Source of the DNA: Bacteroidales bacterium
GTDB taxonomy: Bacteria > Bacteroidota > Bacteroidia > Bacteroidales > UBA932
Length of the DNA: 5,817 bases
Direction of reading: 5' to 3'
NCBI GenBank assembly: GCA_017535125.1
Contig: JAFXUS010000041.1
Coordinates: forward strand, 1 to 5,817
Shown: in pieces, positions 20 through 5,542 of the stretch
Layout: each line of letters begins with the position of its first letter
Numbering within the stretch: position 1 is the stretch's first letter
Translations under genes and position numbers: made by a program
The notes under the pieces: model-generated
Seen by the model: only the letters and a program-made list of their open reading frames with translations
The model's database searches: none
Told to the model about the DNA's origin: nothing

Positions 20-1114
20 TTAAATGTTAATAACGCTGTCTACGTTTTCCCAATCGTCCACGCCGGGCTTCAGACCGCCGCTGTCATCTTCGCCGGGCGG
101 CGGCTCGGGAATCTTGATTTCGAAATCGAGCAGGAGCCACTGGCGCTCGATGGCGTCGTCCTTGAGAAACTCGAGGGCGATGTTGAAGGTCGTGTCCACC
201 TGGCGCCCGTAGGTCGTGGTGAACTCGAAGGAGGCCTTGAGGATGTTCTGGGAGCCGGGAAGGCGGCCGAAGGTCCCGAAGGTGGAATAGATGCAGCGGT
301 AGTCCGTGACCCCGGGCTTGTAGCCGTCGGGGTAGGCGCCGGGGTGCATCTCGAAGTACAGTGTCGTCTCCAAGGACTGCTCGAAGTCGGGCTCGAGCAT
401 GTGGGTGGAGGCGGCCATGCCGGAGAGCAGGCAGGACGAGGACGCGATGTATTGCGCGTTCACGACGCCGATCTGGATGTAGTAGGCTTTGACGACGGTC
501 TCCGCGTCGAACCAGGGCTCTCCCGTCGCGCTGCGCAGGGTGTCGATGCCCTGGTGCGGGAGGATACGGATGCCTTCGCTGCCCGCGACGAAGAGCGGGT
601 CGGCGTCGTAGCGGATCTTCTCGTCGGACTTGGTCCCGGCCCCCGTCGTGTTTTCTCCGCCTACGGCGCTCCTGTTCTGGATGGTGCTCTTGAGCTTGCT
701 CATGAGCGACGGGGAGATTTCGTGCGTTGTCGCGGCCATGCCGTAGCAGTTGTCCTCTTCATCGACGATGGTGGACTCTGTGCCGAAATTGTAGGCCAGG
801 AGGTTGTAGGTGCCTGGCGCGGCAACGATGTATCCTTCAAAATAGGTGCCTTTCTCATCCTCGCCCACGTTGCGCAGGTAGCGCTCGGCCACCATCTGTC
901 CGTTTTCGGTATCGAACAGCGCGACGCGGAGCACCTCCGGGCGCTGGAAGTCCGGATGGATGAAATCGGGGTTGTAGAATCCCGTCGTGACGTTGAGGTC
1001 CTGCTCGCCCACATAGACGCGCACGTAGCTGACGTTGCTCGGATCCTCCAGCGGGCGGAACTCGCAGGCGGCCAGGACAAACAGGACGGGCAGGAGCAGG
1101 AGATGCTTCATCAT
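20..1114 (-). CDS. DUF5119-family surface lipoprotein (fimbrial-cluster type)
   Basis: The product is a 364-aa predicted lipoprotein. Residues 1-16 form a short hydrophobic signal, followed by the lipobox LAAC with the lipidated cysteine at 17 and then EFRPLEDP, which resembles the start of Bacteroidales DUF5119 proteins as I recall them. The body is beta-rich and contains a GTYNLLAYNF strand (101-110) and an AYYIQIGV strand (210-217). The tail is Pro/Gly/Asp-rich and ends in a VDDWENVD-type motif (352-359), also typical of the family. No catalytic residues are visible. Family members sit in operons with DUF3575 proteins and fimbrillin-like subunits, so a role as an outer-membrane-anchored surface or fimbrial accessory protein is inferred, not shown. 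The chosen ATG overlaps the stop of the upstream gene as ATGA, which implies translational coupling. The frame is open for 151 further codons upstream, but that stretch is Arg/Pro/His-rich antisense-like sequence inside the neighbour and has no signal peptide. The next residue of the start is also Met, so the start could be 3 nt later. Confidence 0.8.
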   Translation of the reverse strand: MMKHLLLLPVLFVLAACEFRPLEDPSNVSYVRVYVGEQDLNVTTGFYNPDFIHPDFQRPEVLRVALFDTENGQMVAERYLRNVGEDEKGTYFEGYIVAAPGTYNLLAYNFGTESTIVDEEDNCYGMAATTHEISPSLMSKLKSTIQNRSAVGGENTTGAGTKSDEKIRYDADPLFVAGSEGIRILPHQGIDTLRSATGEPWFDAETVVKAYYIQIGVVNAQYIASSSCLLSGMAASTHMLEPDFEQSLETTLYFEMHPGAYPDGYKPGVTDYRCIYSTFGTFGRLPGSQNILKASFEFTTTYGRQVDTTFNIALEFLKDDAIERQWLLLDFEIKIPEPPPGEDDSGGLKPGVDDWENVDSVINI

Positions 1115-2967
1115 CTGCGGGCGCCCTCCCGTGCGCGGGTCGTAATCTGAATGGGCCAGACGAGGCTGACCTGCAGTTTGGTCGGACCGAAATAATAGGT
1201 GATGCCGGAGCCCTCCGTGTCGCGCCACAGGATCTGCCAGTCGTCGGACGGGATGTAGCGTTGGTAGGGGATGCTGGCGTAGCCGAAGCTGGCGGACAGC
1301 TCGAGGTTGAGGTGCCGGCTGATCGGGAAGGCGTAGCCGTAGGTGAGGCCGACGCTCCAGATGTTCTCGCACTGGTAGCAGCCGATGCGGTCCCACTGCA
1401 GGTCCGTCTTGCCCCAGAGGCCGTACACGCCGAGGAAATGGCCGACCAGGCGGTCGCGCTGGGCGCGTTTTTCCGTCGCGGGGCGCGGCCGGGGGAGGAA
1501 CCACCAGCGGGCCTCGCCGCCGAGGGTCAGATACTGGATGCAGGTGCGGTTGCCGCGCATGACCCACCAGGGGAAATAGTGCTCCCAGGCCAGTGAGAAG
1601 CGGTCTCCGATCGGAATTTCGATGGCGTAGTTCAGCATCGTGACCGCGTCGTAGAGCAGGTTGGTCTTGACGGCGAGGATGGTCCGCTTCTGCTGCCCAT
1701 AGCGCTTCTGCGTCAGCGTCGGCACGGTGAGCCGGTCGGGACGCAGTTCGATGGCCGGGGCGTCCAGCTCCAGGCTGAGTCCCGGGATGAACAGCTCGCT
1801 GTCGCGGAGCCGGAAACGGTCGGAGATGAAGTCCGTCTCGATGCTCGCGGCCCGGAAGTCCGGGTAGAGCGAGCGGTAATAGCGCTGCCAGGACGTGAGT
1901 TTGCGCAGGGCGGCTTCCTTGTCGTCCACGGAAATGGTGGAATCGATGATGTCCAGCGCACGGCGGCTGTCTGCCTCGGAGAGCTTCGTGTCGGCCTGGA
2001 CCGCTGCGCGGAAGTCTTCCCAGGCTTCGCCTTCGACGGTCACGGACACGGCGTCCGCGAATTCAGGCCAGTGCGCGGCGATGTATTTGCGGAGGGATTC
2101 TGCGCGGCGGCGTGCGAGGGTGTTGTTGATGCGCTCCGAGCCTTCTGGAGAGGCCATGCCGACCACGCGGATGATGTCGCCGGTCACATAGCTGCGGTTG
2201 TCCATCATGCTGCGCAGCTGTTCCAGCGAGGCGGCATTGTTCCGGAACTCCGGGCGTATGGTGGTGTCGCTCACGCGGAAATAGATCCGGATGGCGCCGG
2301 CGGGCGTTTCTTCGTCGTCCGTCGCCGACGTCCCCGTCCCGTCATTCGCCGACGTGATCGGCGAATCTCCTCCGAACAGGAACTCCACCCGCGTGCGCTG
2401 CAGCTGCGGGAAGATCGTTTCGCGCATGGCGTTCCACGTCTGTCCGCCCCGCAGGTCCATCAGCTGCTTCTTGCGTCCGTCAACGACGACGCCGGAAGCG
2501 TCTGTAATCCAGATGGGGACGGTGCGGATGATCTCGGCGGCGCGATCGGCGCCGGGAATGTCGGACTGCTCCAGCAGGGCGCAGAGCGCTTCGTAGTCTT
2601 CGCCGGCAGAGGTGACGACGAAAGGAACGCGCTCCAGTTCGGGCATCGCGGAAAGGAGATAGAGGCGGGTGTCGTCGGCACGCTGGTCGGAACGGGCGCG
2701 GTTGCCGTCCGTGTTGCCGTCCGGCGATGCGGCAGAGCGGATGCGCACGCAGACGAGCTGGTTCTCAGGGTCGGCGGTCATCGTCTGCAGGCACTCGTGC
2801 ACGCGTAAAAAAGAAGCGTCGTCGCTGATCTCGAAGCGTTGCAATACGTCGCCGTTCCGCGAGACGAAACGCACAGTGGCGTCCGGCGTCCCGGGGACGG
2901 TTTGTGCGATGGCGGTCAGCGAGACCGTCATCAATAAACACAAGAATATTGCTTTGCTAGTAATCAT
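1111..2967 (-). CDS. DUF3575 outer-membrane protein with duplicated OmpA-like units
   Basis: The product is a 618-aa exported protein. Residues 1-21 are a signal peptide with likely cleavage at AIA|Q. Two OmpA-like units follow, at about 31-199 and 225-382. Each has a beta strand and helix, an ASPDG or ASPEG motif (unit 2: MASPEGSERINNT, then ARRRAESLRKYI at about 285-296), a GE-x-[YW]-E helix, and a closing FP/YP segment. A Gly/Asp/Thr-rich linker (about 200-224) separates them. Residues 429-607 match DUF3575: the opening KTNLLYDAVTMLNYAIE, Trp-rich strands, a CYQCE motif, GLTYGYAFP and a closing YYFGPTKLQVSLVWPI, consistent with a beta barrel in the outer membrane. The OmpA-like parts may bind peptidoglycan or form periplasmic scaffolding; this is inferred. 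The frame is open 31 codons further upstream, but the ATG at 2967 was chosen because it starts the signal peptide and leaves a promoter-like box upstream. It is the first gene of an operon with the DUF5119 lipoprotein. An in-frame palindrome encodes residues 201-209. Confidence 0.85.
   Translation of the reverse strand: MITSKAIFLCLLMTVSLTAIAQTVPGTPDATVRFVSRNGDVLQRFEISDDASFLRVHECLQTMTADPENQLVCVRIRSAASPDGNTDGNRARSDQRADDTRLYLLSAMPELERVPFVVTSAGEDYEALCALLEQSDIPGADRAAEIIRTVPIWITDASGVVVDGRKKQLMDLRGGQTWNAMRETIFPQLQRTRVEFLFGGDSPITSANDGTGTSATDDEETPAGAIRIYFRVSDTTIRPEFRNNAASLEQLRSMMDNRSYVTGDIIRVVGMASPEGSERINNTLARRRAESLRKYIAAHWPEFADAVSVTVEGEAWEDFRAAVQADTKLSEADSRRALDIIDSTISVDDKEAALRKLTSWQRYYRSLYPDFRAASIETDFISDRFRLRDSELFIPGLSLELDAPAIELRPDRLTVPTLTQKRYGQQKRTILAVKTNLLYDAVTMLNYAIEIPIGDRFSLAWEHYFPWWVMRGNRTCIQYLTLGGEARWWFLPRPRPATEKRAQRDRLVGHFLGVYGLWGKTDLQWDRIGCYQCENIWSVGLTYGYAFPISRHLNLELSASFGYASIPYQRYIPSDDWQILWRDTEGSGITYYFGPTKLQVSLVWPIQITTRAREGARR
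2343..2369 (+). repeat. Palindromic repeat copy C, in frame in the DUF3575 gene
   Basis: A perfect 9-bp inverted repeat, ATTCGCCGA / TCGGCGAAT, encloses the 5-nt loop CGTGA. The flanks CATTC and GAATCTC and the loop pattern CNTGA are shared with copies at 3189-3213 and 3992-4016, but the stem core differs (GCCGA against CGGA), so this is the most divergent member. It is read in frame in the host gene as about residues 201-209 (DSPITSAND), inside the linker between the two OmpA-like units. Membership in the family is an inference. Confidence 0.5.
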
Positions 2968-3005
2968 GCGTGCGTATGTGTGTGCTTCCACAGTATAAAT
3001 TGTTG

Positions 3006-3013
3006 CGAAGATA
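3006..3013 (-). promoter_or_regulatory. Possible Bacteroidetes -7 box for the DUF3575 operon
   Basis: On the minus strand this reads TATCTTCG, one mismatch from the Bacteroidetes -7 consensus TAnnTTTG. It lies about 38 nt upstream of the chosen ATG at 2967 and follows an AT-rich stretch. I found no good -33 TTTG at the usual 19-21 nt spacing, so the call rests on the -7 box and its position. Confidence 0.4.
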
Positions 3014-3144
3014 GCACATATAATTTTGAAATTGTTATCCGTTCGTATAATTCTTATCACTGATTTGGCAATTTCTATTGATTTTGCGTCAATGATTTGT
3101 AAAAGTTGCCGAATCGGAAAAATGGGGGGGGGCTATTTAACGCA

Positions 3145-3171
3145 ATTACGCGGTTGTTTGGACCGCGTAAT
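3145..3171 (-). terminator. Hairpin downstream of the PspC operon
   Basis: A 9-bp perfect inverted repeat, ATTACGCGG / CCGCGTAAT, surrounds a 9-nt loop and lies about 40 nt past the long PspC stop codon. It may stabilise or end the operon transcript. There is no U-run after the stem on the minus strand (TGCGTTAAATAG follows), so it is not a standard rho-independent terminator. The plus strand also has GGTTGTTT twice, at 3152-3159 and 3172-3179, around the right arm. Confidence 0.35.
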
Positions 3172-3188
3172 GGTTGTTTTTGCTCGGA

Positions 3189-3213
3189 GATTCCGGGCTT
3201 GACCCGGAATCTC
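3189..3213 (+). repeat. Palindromic repeat copy A at the PspC stop codon
   Basis: A perfect 11-bp inverted repeat spans 3187-3213 with loop CTTGA (3198-3202). The 25-nt core matches the minus strand of copy B (3992-4016) at 21 of 25 positions. Two of the four differences (A/G and T/C) form one stem pair and so preserve base pairing. The last base, 3213, is also the G of the TAG stop codon of the long PspC gene. No U-run follows on either strand, so it is better explained as a repeat than as a terminator. Confidence 0.7.
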
Positions 3214-4319
3214 TAAACGGAGAGGAACTCCGTGGTGATGAAGCCGGTTGCGATCAGGATTCCGGTCGCTATGACCGACATCAGCCAGAGGATGAAAATG
3301 ACCAGGCCGGGATGCCACTTCGGCGACTTGAATCCGAAGAGCAGCTGCAGTGCACCGTAGAGCAGGCCGAGGAACGGCAGGAACACCACGAGCATCACGA
3401 GGATGCTGGCGCCCGGCTGGGCGAGCGCCATGGCGGCATTGGGGGCGAAGTGATGGAGCTCCGCCATACCCTGGTCGTAGAGGCGGTTGAGGCCCAGGAT
3501 GCCGTGGCCGTGCCGACGGCCGAACCATCCGCTGCCGAAGCCCCACAGGCTGCCGGTGAACAGGCCGGCGAAGCCGACGACCAGCAGGATCACGCCGATG
3601 AATTTCTCGATGAATCCGCCTATCTCCGTCCAGGCCTTGGACTTCCCGACGGACTGGAGCGCATTGTCCACTTCCCGTGCCCCGGACTCGATCCCCCGCT
3701 CGATGTTCCGCTTGATGCTGTCGAGCGTTCCGTCTTCGCCGCGCTGCTCCCAGCGCTGGCGGACGGTCTTGGCGGCCGGCATGCAGATCCACAGGAGGAC
3801 GTACAGGACCGGGAAGCTCATGCGGATGACGAAGAATCCATGGTGCCAGCGGCCGAGGAGGCTCGCGACGGTGCCGATGGCGAAGATCAGTCGCGGCAGC
3901 GTGGCTTCGATGTTCAGATAGGCCGCCAGGCCGCTGCACACGCCCGCGACCATCTTGTCGGTCATGTCGCGGTAGAGCTTCTTTTTGGGACGAGATTCCG
4001 GATCAGGTCCGGAATGAGGTTCTGTGGCCTCGCGCTGCTCCTCTTTCGCCTCTTCTTCTCCCGCTTCAATGTCCTCCGGGCGGCCGAGGATGCCGATGAC
4101 TTCCTCGATCATGGCGTGGGATACCACGCCGTCGCGGCCGGCCTTCTCCATCAGGAGCTCCGCCATCCGTTCCTCGATGCAATCCATGATCTCCCCGCCG
4201 CCGGTGCGGCCGTCGTAATGCTTCTCCAGCTGGCCGAGGTATTCCTCGGTCAGGCGCGCTGCGTCGTCATTCAGGGTGAAGGCGTAGCCGCCGAGACTGA
4301 CTCTTTCTACTTCTTTCAT
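3213..4319 (-). CDS. PspC-domain membrane protein, long form
   Basis: The product is a 368-aa predicted inner-membrane protein. Residues 1-85 form a soluble, helical domain also present in the short PspC gene upstream (KEVERVSL..., IEERMAELL, IGILGRPEDIE). An acidic linker (86-111) follows. The PspC domain, about 112-183, has the family pattern KKLYRDMTDKMVAGVCSGLAAYL and a second hydrophobic helix ending in LYVLLWICMP. An amphipathic charged region lies at 184-230, and three more hydrophobic segments at about 239-262, 305-330 and 338-362. PspC proteins act in envelope-stress responses; the precise job here is unknown. The ATG overlaps the stop of padR as ATGA, so it is translationally coupled as the last gene of the operon. 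Residues 102-110 (HSGPDPESR) are encoded by an in-frame palindromic repeat in the linker, and the stop codon overlaps another copy. Confidence 0.85.
   Translation of the reverse strand: MKEVERVSLGGYAFTLNDDAARLTEEYLGQLEKHYDGRTGGGEIMDCIEERMAELLMEKAGRDGVVSHAMIEEVIGILGRPEDIEAGEEEAKEEQREATEPHSGPDPESRPKKKLYRDMTDKMVAGVCSGLAAYLNIEATLPRLIFAIGTVASLLGRWHHGFFVIRMSFPVLYVLLWICMPAAKTVRQRWEQRGEDGTLDSIKRNIERGIESGAREVDNALQSVGKSKAWTEIGGFIEKFIGVILLVVGFAGLFTGSLWGFGSGWFGRRHGHGILGLNRLYDQGMAELHHFAPNAAMALAQPGASILVMLVVFLPFLGLLYGALQLLFGFKSPKWHPGLVIFILWLMSVIATGILIATGFITTEFLSV
3992..4016 (-). repeat. Palindromic repeat copy B, in frame in the long PspC gene
   Basis: An 8-bp perfect inverted repeat, ATTCCGGA / TCCGGAAT (3995-4002 and 4008-4015), has a 5-nt loop that reads CCTGA on the minus strand. 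On the minus strand it aligns without gaps to copy A at 21 of 25 positions. It is read in frame as HSGPDPESR (residues 102-110), exactly between the N-terminal domain and the PspC domain. The equivalent linker of the paralogue at 4653-5240 has no such palindrome. Confidence 0.7.
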
Positions 4320-5295: not shown

Positions 5296-5357
5296 CAAAG
5301 TACCAAAAAATTAAAAGAATTTTATGCCGTTTTTGTAATATACTGATTGATAATAAT

Positions 5358-5401
5358 TTACAAAATTGCTTGAAGGCATTTATCCTCAAGCAATTTTGTA
5401 A
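5358..5401 (-). terminator. Long AT-rich hairpin, possible terminator after proC
   Basis: A 16-bp perfect stem (5358-5373 with 5386-5401) is followed inward by one bulged A and a 2-bp GG/CC pair around the loop CATTTAT. It lies about 145 nt past the proC stop and upstream of the PspC promoter. In the minus direction the 3' arm ends in CAATTTTGTAA, then ATTATTATC, which is U-rich but not a clean U-tract. It could serve as a terminator for proC or be a separate regulatory or repeat element. Confidence 0.5.
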
Positions 5402-5435
5402 CTAATTGGTAATAGTAGATTTATAGAAACGTTCT

Positions 5436-5542
5436 GCCCCGCGTCCGGCAGGTCCTGCCCCGGCAGAAGTATTTCCGCAGCGAAGCGAGGACGTTTTTTG
5501 CTTCTGCGGGGCAGGGGCCTGCCGGCGCGGAAGCAATGGGGC
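5436..5542. repeat. GC-rich nested inverted repeat (REP-pair-like)
   Basis: Two arms of about 28 nt (5441-5469 and 5501-5528) are inverted copies with only a few mismatches or bulges, separated by about 31 nt. An outer GCCCC/GGGGC pair (5436-5440, 5538-5542) extends them. Each arm is itself a palindrome: GGCAGG-T-CCTGCC (5447-5459) and GGCAGG-GG-CCTGCC (5510-5523). Two mutually inverted hairpins with a short spacer is the layout of REP doublets (REPINs). No U-run follows on the minus strand, so a plain proC terminator is less likely. Whether it is dispersed in the genome cannot be seen here. Confidence 0.6.

Follow-up and report, generated by a model that had tools for sequence, protein, structure and literature searches.

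CGTC-tagged repetitive extragenic palindromic (REP) sequences, as described by Di Nocera, De Gregorio, and Rocco in 2013 (PMC3733652), consist of an 8-9 bp stem with AT first and a loop of 4-5 nt, with an unpaired CGTC, TGTC, or CCTC tag and a tail that is CCA in most repeats, not all. They occur in five phyla including Bacteroidetes, copies are also found in genes, head-to-head dimers predominate, and the Rickettsia palindromic elements (RPEs) RPE-4 and RPE-6 and the neisserial dRS3, which belongs to CGTC-1, are members of the same superfamily; that paper found no transposase for them. It also notes two species of Xanthomonas that carry REPs at roughly the same position in recB (PMC3733652), a precedent for recurrent sites. 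Here we analyzed three short palindromes, copies A, B, and C, in a gut Bacteroidales stretch of 5,817 bases (contig JAFXUS010000041.1; 61% G+C), hereafter the window. We consider them very probably to be members of the CGTC-tagged REP superfamily that have spread in this lineage, with a linker in a PspC-domain protein serving as a permissive and repeatedly used site.

The palindromes and their family

An earlier note, made by a model from the window's letters, had described three perfect palindromes that share the terminal motifs ATTC...GAATCTC and a CNTGA loop, and a hairpin search recovered all three at those places (Table 1). Two stem types are represented, CCGG (copies B and C) and GCC (copy A), and the loop is 5 nt in 3/3 copies. 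The reported match at 21 of 25 positions with one compensatory stem change holds between copies B and C (3189-3213 vs 3992-4016) but not for copy A (2343-2369), which has a different, longer stem (GCCGA). The stem of copy B reaches 11 bp because GGAG, at the position of the tag, pairs with the tail; this copy touches the stop codon of the long PspC open reading frame (ORF). Copies A and C are read in frame in minus-strand genes, as the earlier note had said, giving GDSPITSANDG in the DUF3575 protein and HSGPDPESR in the PspC protein. Copy C, with two mismatches to the family consensus, lies in the linker just ahead of the PspC domain, in agreement with its proposed position between that domain and the N-terminal part. 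Copy A had been placed between two OmpA-like units; it does lie between the N-terminal part and an OmpA match, but this match is weak and below the cut-off, which supports the placement only in part.

The long PspC protein has 23 relatives among genome contigs, mostly from Bacteroidales metagenome-assembled genomes, many of them from the rumen. Across the window and 23 related loci we found 15 hairpins with ATTC in an arm, 13 of them family members by eye and the other two, in L003 and L011, of different sequence; when all 24 sequences were dinucleotide-shuffled three times, no such hairpin appeared. We then characterized the family in a related genome, G002, sampled as 60 stretches (1,168,389 bases). 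This sample holds 66 ATTC hairpins, with loops of 5 nt (41), 6 nt (17), 4 nt (4), 3 nt (3), and 7 nt (1). Excluding four with other arms or short stems leaves 62 family members: 40 CCGG-type, 20 GCC-type, and 2 others. Among the CCGG-type copies, the tag is AGTC in 34 and CGTC in 5, the loop core is GCTTGAC in 32, and the tail is CTC in 23, while the GCC-type copies carry a CGTC tag in 14 cases and a CTC tail in 12. By inspection, most copies in the sample look single.

A scan for GTC-tagged palindromes with any stem, whose length limit leaves out the 23-nt GCC type, found 50 in the G002 stretches vs 0 or 1 in ten dinucleotide shuffles, including rarer stems such as ATGCCCGA; the same scan of 838 kb of the genus mate G010 gave three palindromes unlike the family. 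An excess over shuffled sequence, set beforehand as a check, was seen both in the window loci and in the G002 stretches. The exact CCGG core is present in 10 IMG/VR stretches, in which the core GTCATTCCGGGCTTGACCCGGAATC mostly has a CCA tail, and the GCC core was found in no IMG/VR viral contig; the stretches with the CCGG core look like other bacteria and not like vectors. One 16-kb contig filed as viral, IMGVR_UViG_3300003667_000196 (L180 and L186), holds 23 GTCATTC...GAATC palindromes, mostly with CCA tails and spaced ∼48 nt apart in places, and is probably a bacterial repeat array.

The minus-strand gene set of the window comprises DUF5119, DUF3575/OmpA-like, long PspC, PadR regulator, short PspC, and partial pyrroline-5-carboxylate reductase genes.

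Table 1. Palindromes, their host genes, and further inverted repeats in the window.
Feature	Position	Strand	Details	Basis
Copy A, GCC stem type	2340..2369	(+)	Tag CGTC; arms ATTCGCCGA/TCGGCGAAT; loop CGTGA; tail CTC; hairpin 2344-2366, perfect 9-bp stem	
Copy B, CCGG stem type	3186-3213	(+)	GGAG at tag position; arms ATTCCGGG/CCCGGAAT; loop CTTGA; tail CTC; hairpin 3187-3213, perfect 11-bp stem	
Copy C, CCGG stem type	3992..4019	(-)	Tag CCTC; arms ATTCCGGA/TCCGGAAT; loop CCTGA (minus strand); tail CTC; hairpin 3995-4015, perfect 8-bp stem	
DUF3575/OmpA-like protein, 618 aa, host of copy A	1111..2967	(-)	Weak OmpA match, residues 229-314 (26.5 bits, cut-off 27.2); DUF3575, residues 430-605	ORF + Pfam
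Long PspC-domain protein, 368 aa, host of copy C	3213..4319	(-)	PspC domain, residues 113-182; ORF end = 3213	ORF + Pfam
Unrelated perfect hairpin, between PspC and DUF3575 genes	3145-3171		10-bp stem, 7-nt loop	
Further inverted repeat, intergenic, beside pyrroline-5-carboxylate reductase gene	5352-5407			
Further inverted repeat, intergenic, beside pyrroline-5-carboxylate reductase gene	5439-5530			

Copy numbers, copies in genes, and element-free orthologous sites

The pattern ATTCCGG-N3-8-CCGGAAT was used to count CCGG-type copies, with the same pattern read backwards as the control. It is present in 17/20 genomes searched, with 79 copies in G002, 60 in G007, 40 in G003, 35 in G013, 25 in G009, 13-24 in G004, G005, and G012, and 0-9 in the remaining 12. 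The GCC pattern is present in 15/19 genomes (48 copies in G007, 38 in G009, and 37 in G002), and the backwards-read controls are zero save for one count in G016. Counting both stem types, some related genomes have no copies, and the maximum is reached in G002 with 79+37. At a larger scale, the strict pattern GTCATTCCGG-N5-7-CCGGAATC is patchily distributed: it occurs in 28/200 genomes sampled within the genus to which G002 belongs and in 30/395 sampled within the phylum, with G002 itself counted in both sets. A bin labelled Clostridia, G001, was part of the CCGG-pattern search and was excluded from later counts. It has no CCGG-type palindrome and holds a Bacteroidales contig, L001, with a PspC gene that hardly differs from the one in L002; this contig is probably the result of mis-binning.

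Insertion is most apparent in the PspC linker. In the window gene and 19 orthologues, counting as an element any match with at most five mismatches to the family consensus, we found the element in 11/20 genes, always in the linker of 78-177 nt that is flanked by GRPED and KRKLYR, and nothing within eight mismatches in the rest of the ∼1.1-kb gene in any of the 20. Among 300 codon-shuffled PspC genes, none had a match at six or fewer mismatches and the best had seven, which is also the level of the linker matches in L010 and L016; these two were not counted. The genes of L001 and L002 are almost identical, so the 11 genes amount to about 10 cases. The elements lie on both strands, at several positions, and belong to both stem types, with two each in L007 and L009. 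In a tree built without the linker, L003 (CCGG) groups beside L001/L002 (GCC) with support 95/97, and L004 (GCC) beside L005 (CCGG) with support 86/81. Stem type therefore varies between close relatives, and the linker has probably been hit repeatedly by insertion. At the protein level, 41/82 distinct linkers match one of five frame classes (from 120 listed of 1010 homologues), and the five patterns have 0 matches outside the PspC linker and 0 in shuffled linkers; because the patterns had been derived from the very linkers they were matched to, it is the DNA test that carries weight.

Copies within genes extend beyond PspC. Four of the six frames of the CCGG element are free of stops (SHSGLDPES, VIPGLTRNL, EIPGQARND, and RFRVKPGMT), and at least 13/62 elements of the G002 sample are read in frame within 10 ORFs that match Pfam families. 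This number is a floor, as only Pfam-checked ORFs were counted (10 of 17 candidate frames checked, 10/10 matched); many other open frames overlapping elements in G002 are without such support. The hosts are AcrB-type efflux, OEP efflux, HrpB, MacB/FtsX permease, GT2, VKOR, and GSCFA proteins, together with Tricorn protease, FtsK, and MetH, which have two copies each. The two FtsK copies sit between the membrane and alpha domains, and the copies in HrpB, GT2, GSCFA, MacB, and AcrB and one of those in MetH lie inside Pfam domain matches and not in linkers. Relative to orthologues, HrpB has 12 added residues, GT2 has 8, and GSCFA has 26 (element plus flanks), and MetH has short added stretches at two places. 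The DUF3575 linker repeats the PspC pattern on a smaller scale: in a 50-row alignment of this protein, GDSPITSANDG recurs in homologues P0121, P0122, and P0156 and in a near form in P0157; the other 46 rows are without it, with a weak resemblance in two (P0123 and P0126).

Orthologous sites without the element were sought in G010, G011, and G008, genus mates of G002 that are ∼74-90% identical to it in a test region and in which the two patterns together count 8, 2, and 12 copies. Both flanks were matched in the compared loci for 15/62 G002 elements; four of these were not alignable (other strand or too large a gap), and at 11/11 alignable sites the same element is absent from the relative. Some junctions are clean; at one of them, AATAG is directly followed by CTATTT in G010 and separated from it by TCATTCCGGGCTTGACCCGGAAT in G002. 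At several absent sites the difference consists of a 23-38 bp piece alone, and other junctions, those at both MetH sites among them, are obscured by additional changes. At one MetH site G008 (L189) carries a third stem type, CGTC-ATGCCCGG-CTTGA-CCGGGCAT, where G002 has a CCGG-type copy. CGTC is already present at one absent site (HrpB), which is suggestive of a target, but the other junctions disagree. On the simplest reading of these alignments, the absent sites would reflect gain.

Proposed mode of spread and competing explanations

From these comparisons of sequences we infer that the repeats are mobile. The repeat unit is a non-autonomous hairpin of ∼24-30 nt, made up of a (C/A)GTC tag, a stem of 8-9 bp that begins with AT, a loop that in most copies has 5-6 nt, and a short tail, usually CTC. 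It would spread by copying and insertion through an activity supplied in trans, most likely acting on the single-stranded hairpin; the hairpin form and the tag suggest single-strand handling of the kind proposed for GTAG REPs. Within genes, copies may persist only at places where extra residues do no harm, in linkers and in what are presumably surface loops, and intergenic copies would often settle beside stop codons. The PspC linker would then be a permissive site that is hit again and again. The earlier note's idea of a spreading palindrome that tolerates in-frame insertion gains support from the genome copy numbers with their near-zero controls, the element-free orthologous sites, and the 13 in-gene copies in one sampled genome.

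Several observations weigh against membership in a spreading CGTC-tagged family. The copy counts come from related genomes, and the window's own genome is not among them. Within the window, the GTC tag is missing from two of the three copies (GGAG and CCTC), a strict scan for GTC-tagged palindromes found none, and the GCCGA stem of copy A recurs in just 2/20 GCC-type copies of the G002 sample. Because the relatives are as divergent as noted above, junctions are blurred and no target duplication could be fixed, and in single cases the absence of an element from a relative could be a loss. Finally, searches of related genomes with Y1 and IS110 profiles found no transposase that fits the copy numbers.

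One alternative is that the palindromes are cognate hairpins of a genome-encoded Y1 (RAYT/TIRYT-like) transposase and are moved by it. Y1_Tnp (PF01797) has matches in 18/19 genomes, 12 of them over the Pfam cut-off, irrespective of copy number. A CGTC-type palindrome occurs within ∼3 kb in 5/30 Y1 loci examined (38 matches listed), and three of these (L085, L088, and L103) have it downstream of the Y1 gene, at 75-80 bp from the stop codon; L088 and L103 are near-identical, so the three represent two cases. Yet each of these Y1 genes stands between longer hairpins of its own that differ in sequence (ACCTTCGGAG/CTCCGAAGGT), and of 33 loci examined for this protein family, just two carry the palindrome at a distance of 400 bp or less, both already counted above. 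The richest genome, G002, has a single weak Y1 match, at a locus without the palindrome, and the copy-free G018 (below cut-off) and G020 also match. G010 and G008 have Y1 genes at the site of a G002 CGTC copy, with no CGTC hairpin around them. A Y1-based "CGTC REPtron" was therefore rejected, as flanking hairpins differ in sequence, the palindrome is rare near family members, and there is no relation to copy number; movement by Y1 in general is unlikely. Another route would need no dedicated enzyme: slippage during replication, or a switch of template at hairpins, together with gene conversion. Such copying would sit well with this failure to find a transposase and with the partial and tandem copies that stand beside full ones in the L009 and L013 linkers and downstream in L103. 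We regard it as a minor possibility, given that dispersed, unlinked copies with a near-constant tag and tail need copying at a distance.

Two further explanations were considered. The palindromes might be fixed recognition sites of a filamentous phage integrase or an invertase, with recombination between them explaining the distribution, much as a subtype of the CGTC-1 member dRS3 is reported as a target of the Nf1 prophage integrase. The absent sites that differ by one short piece alone and the insertions within single genes, which require no recombination between copies, make this improbable, as does the IS110 DEDD domain (PF01548), which was found in 1/23 genomes only, the copy-poor G019, and in none of the tested copy-rich genomes. 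Functional RNA hairpins, either terminators or mRNA stabilisers under selection at gene ends, could account for TAGTC at the tag in 26/40 CCGG-type copies of G002 and for the copies at stop codons. This we consider highly improbable in view of the in-frame copies inside conserved genes and the near-absence of the family in those stretches of G010, a genus mate, that were scanned. In addition, no T-run follows the window hairpins, an Rfam search of the window gave no match, and a position conserved across relatives was not seen at any of the 11 tested sites.

The preferred explanation, spread of CGTC-tagged REPs, can be carried one step further, though tentatively: a very small CGTC-type repeat may still be moving in uncultured rumen Bacteroidales by means of an enzyme that is neither Y1/RAYT nor IS110, with tolerant linkers (PspC and MetH) as recurrent landing sites. 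If so, new disordered peptide segments are being written repeatedly into the same proteins in different frames, and such rumen genomes would be the place to identify the missing CGTC mobiliser. The contrast from none to about 110 copies, combined with element-free sites, offers a direct comparative route to that enzyme. Among the literature matches listed, we found no report of a CGTC transposase later than the 2013 paper.

Apart from these palindromes, Bacteroidales carry Y1-transposase-like genes of ∼310 aa (L103, L088, L143, L118, L102, and others of L114-L146), many of which are bracketed by long gene-specific hairpins with stems of up to 22 bp that differ between genes. Genes with hairpins of their own in this manner are similar to the TIRYT type that Di Nocera et al. 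describe (PMC3733652) and the Bacteroidetes subclasses described in PMC6006769.

Relation to known palindromic repeats

The earlier note knew of no such description for this lineage. A search of mainly open papers with palindromic terms returned, among the matches listed, no title or abstract describing Bacteroidales or rumen copies, but Bacteroidetes had already been named for CGTC repeats (PMC3733652), so that the claim is right only in a narrow sense. Two features stand out in the present repeats: the repeated use of the PspC linker, and copy numbers that contrast strongly within one lineage. In that linker, the same stretch of protein appears to have been remade repeatedly as selfish DNA entered in frame, which is best known to happen in Rickettsia.

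The likeness to RPEs suggested in the earlier note is strengthened by Di Nocera et al. (PMC3733652), who assign RPE-4 and RPE-6 to the CGTC superfamily. As with RPEs, in-frame palindromes occur here in unrelated genes of one genome, a comparison based on the description of RPEs; the present repeats differ in lineage and in size, at ∼24-30 bp against ∼150 bp for the RPEs reviewed in PMC10969869. The neisserial dRS3, an ATTCCC-N8-GGGAAT palindrome, is similar to them, but is described as forming largely intergenic arrays used by a prophage integrase, whereas here many copies are single and some are in genes. GTAG REPs are tagged palindromes of similar size that are likewise thought to spread, sometimes into genes, but they have a GTAG tag and an associated RAYT transposase, neither of which was seen here.

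The closest match is with the CGTC-tagged REPs themselves, which share the 8-9 bp stem starting with AT, the 5-nt loop, the short tail, dispersed and in-gene copies, and the lack of an identified transposase, and whose variant tag CCTC is carried by copy C. The present repeats depart from them in the AGTC tag of the CCGG type (34/40 sampled copies), the tail that is mostly CTC (23/40 and 12/20) and not CCA, the many 6-nt loops of the GCC type, and the recurrent insertions in the PspC linker. They are very probably new members of the known CGTC-REP family and not a new kind of repeat.

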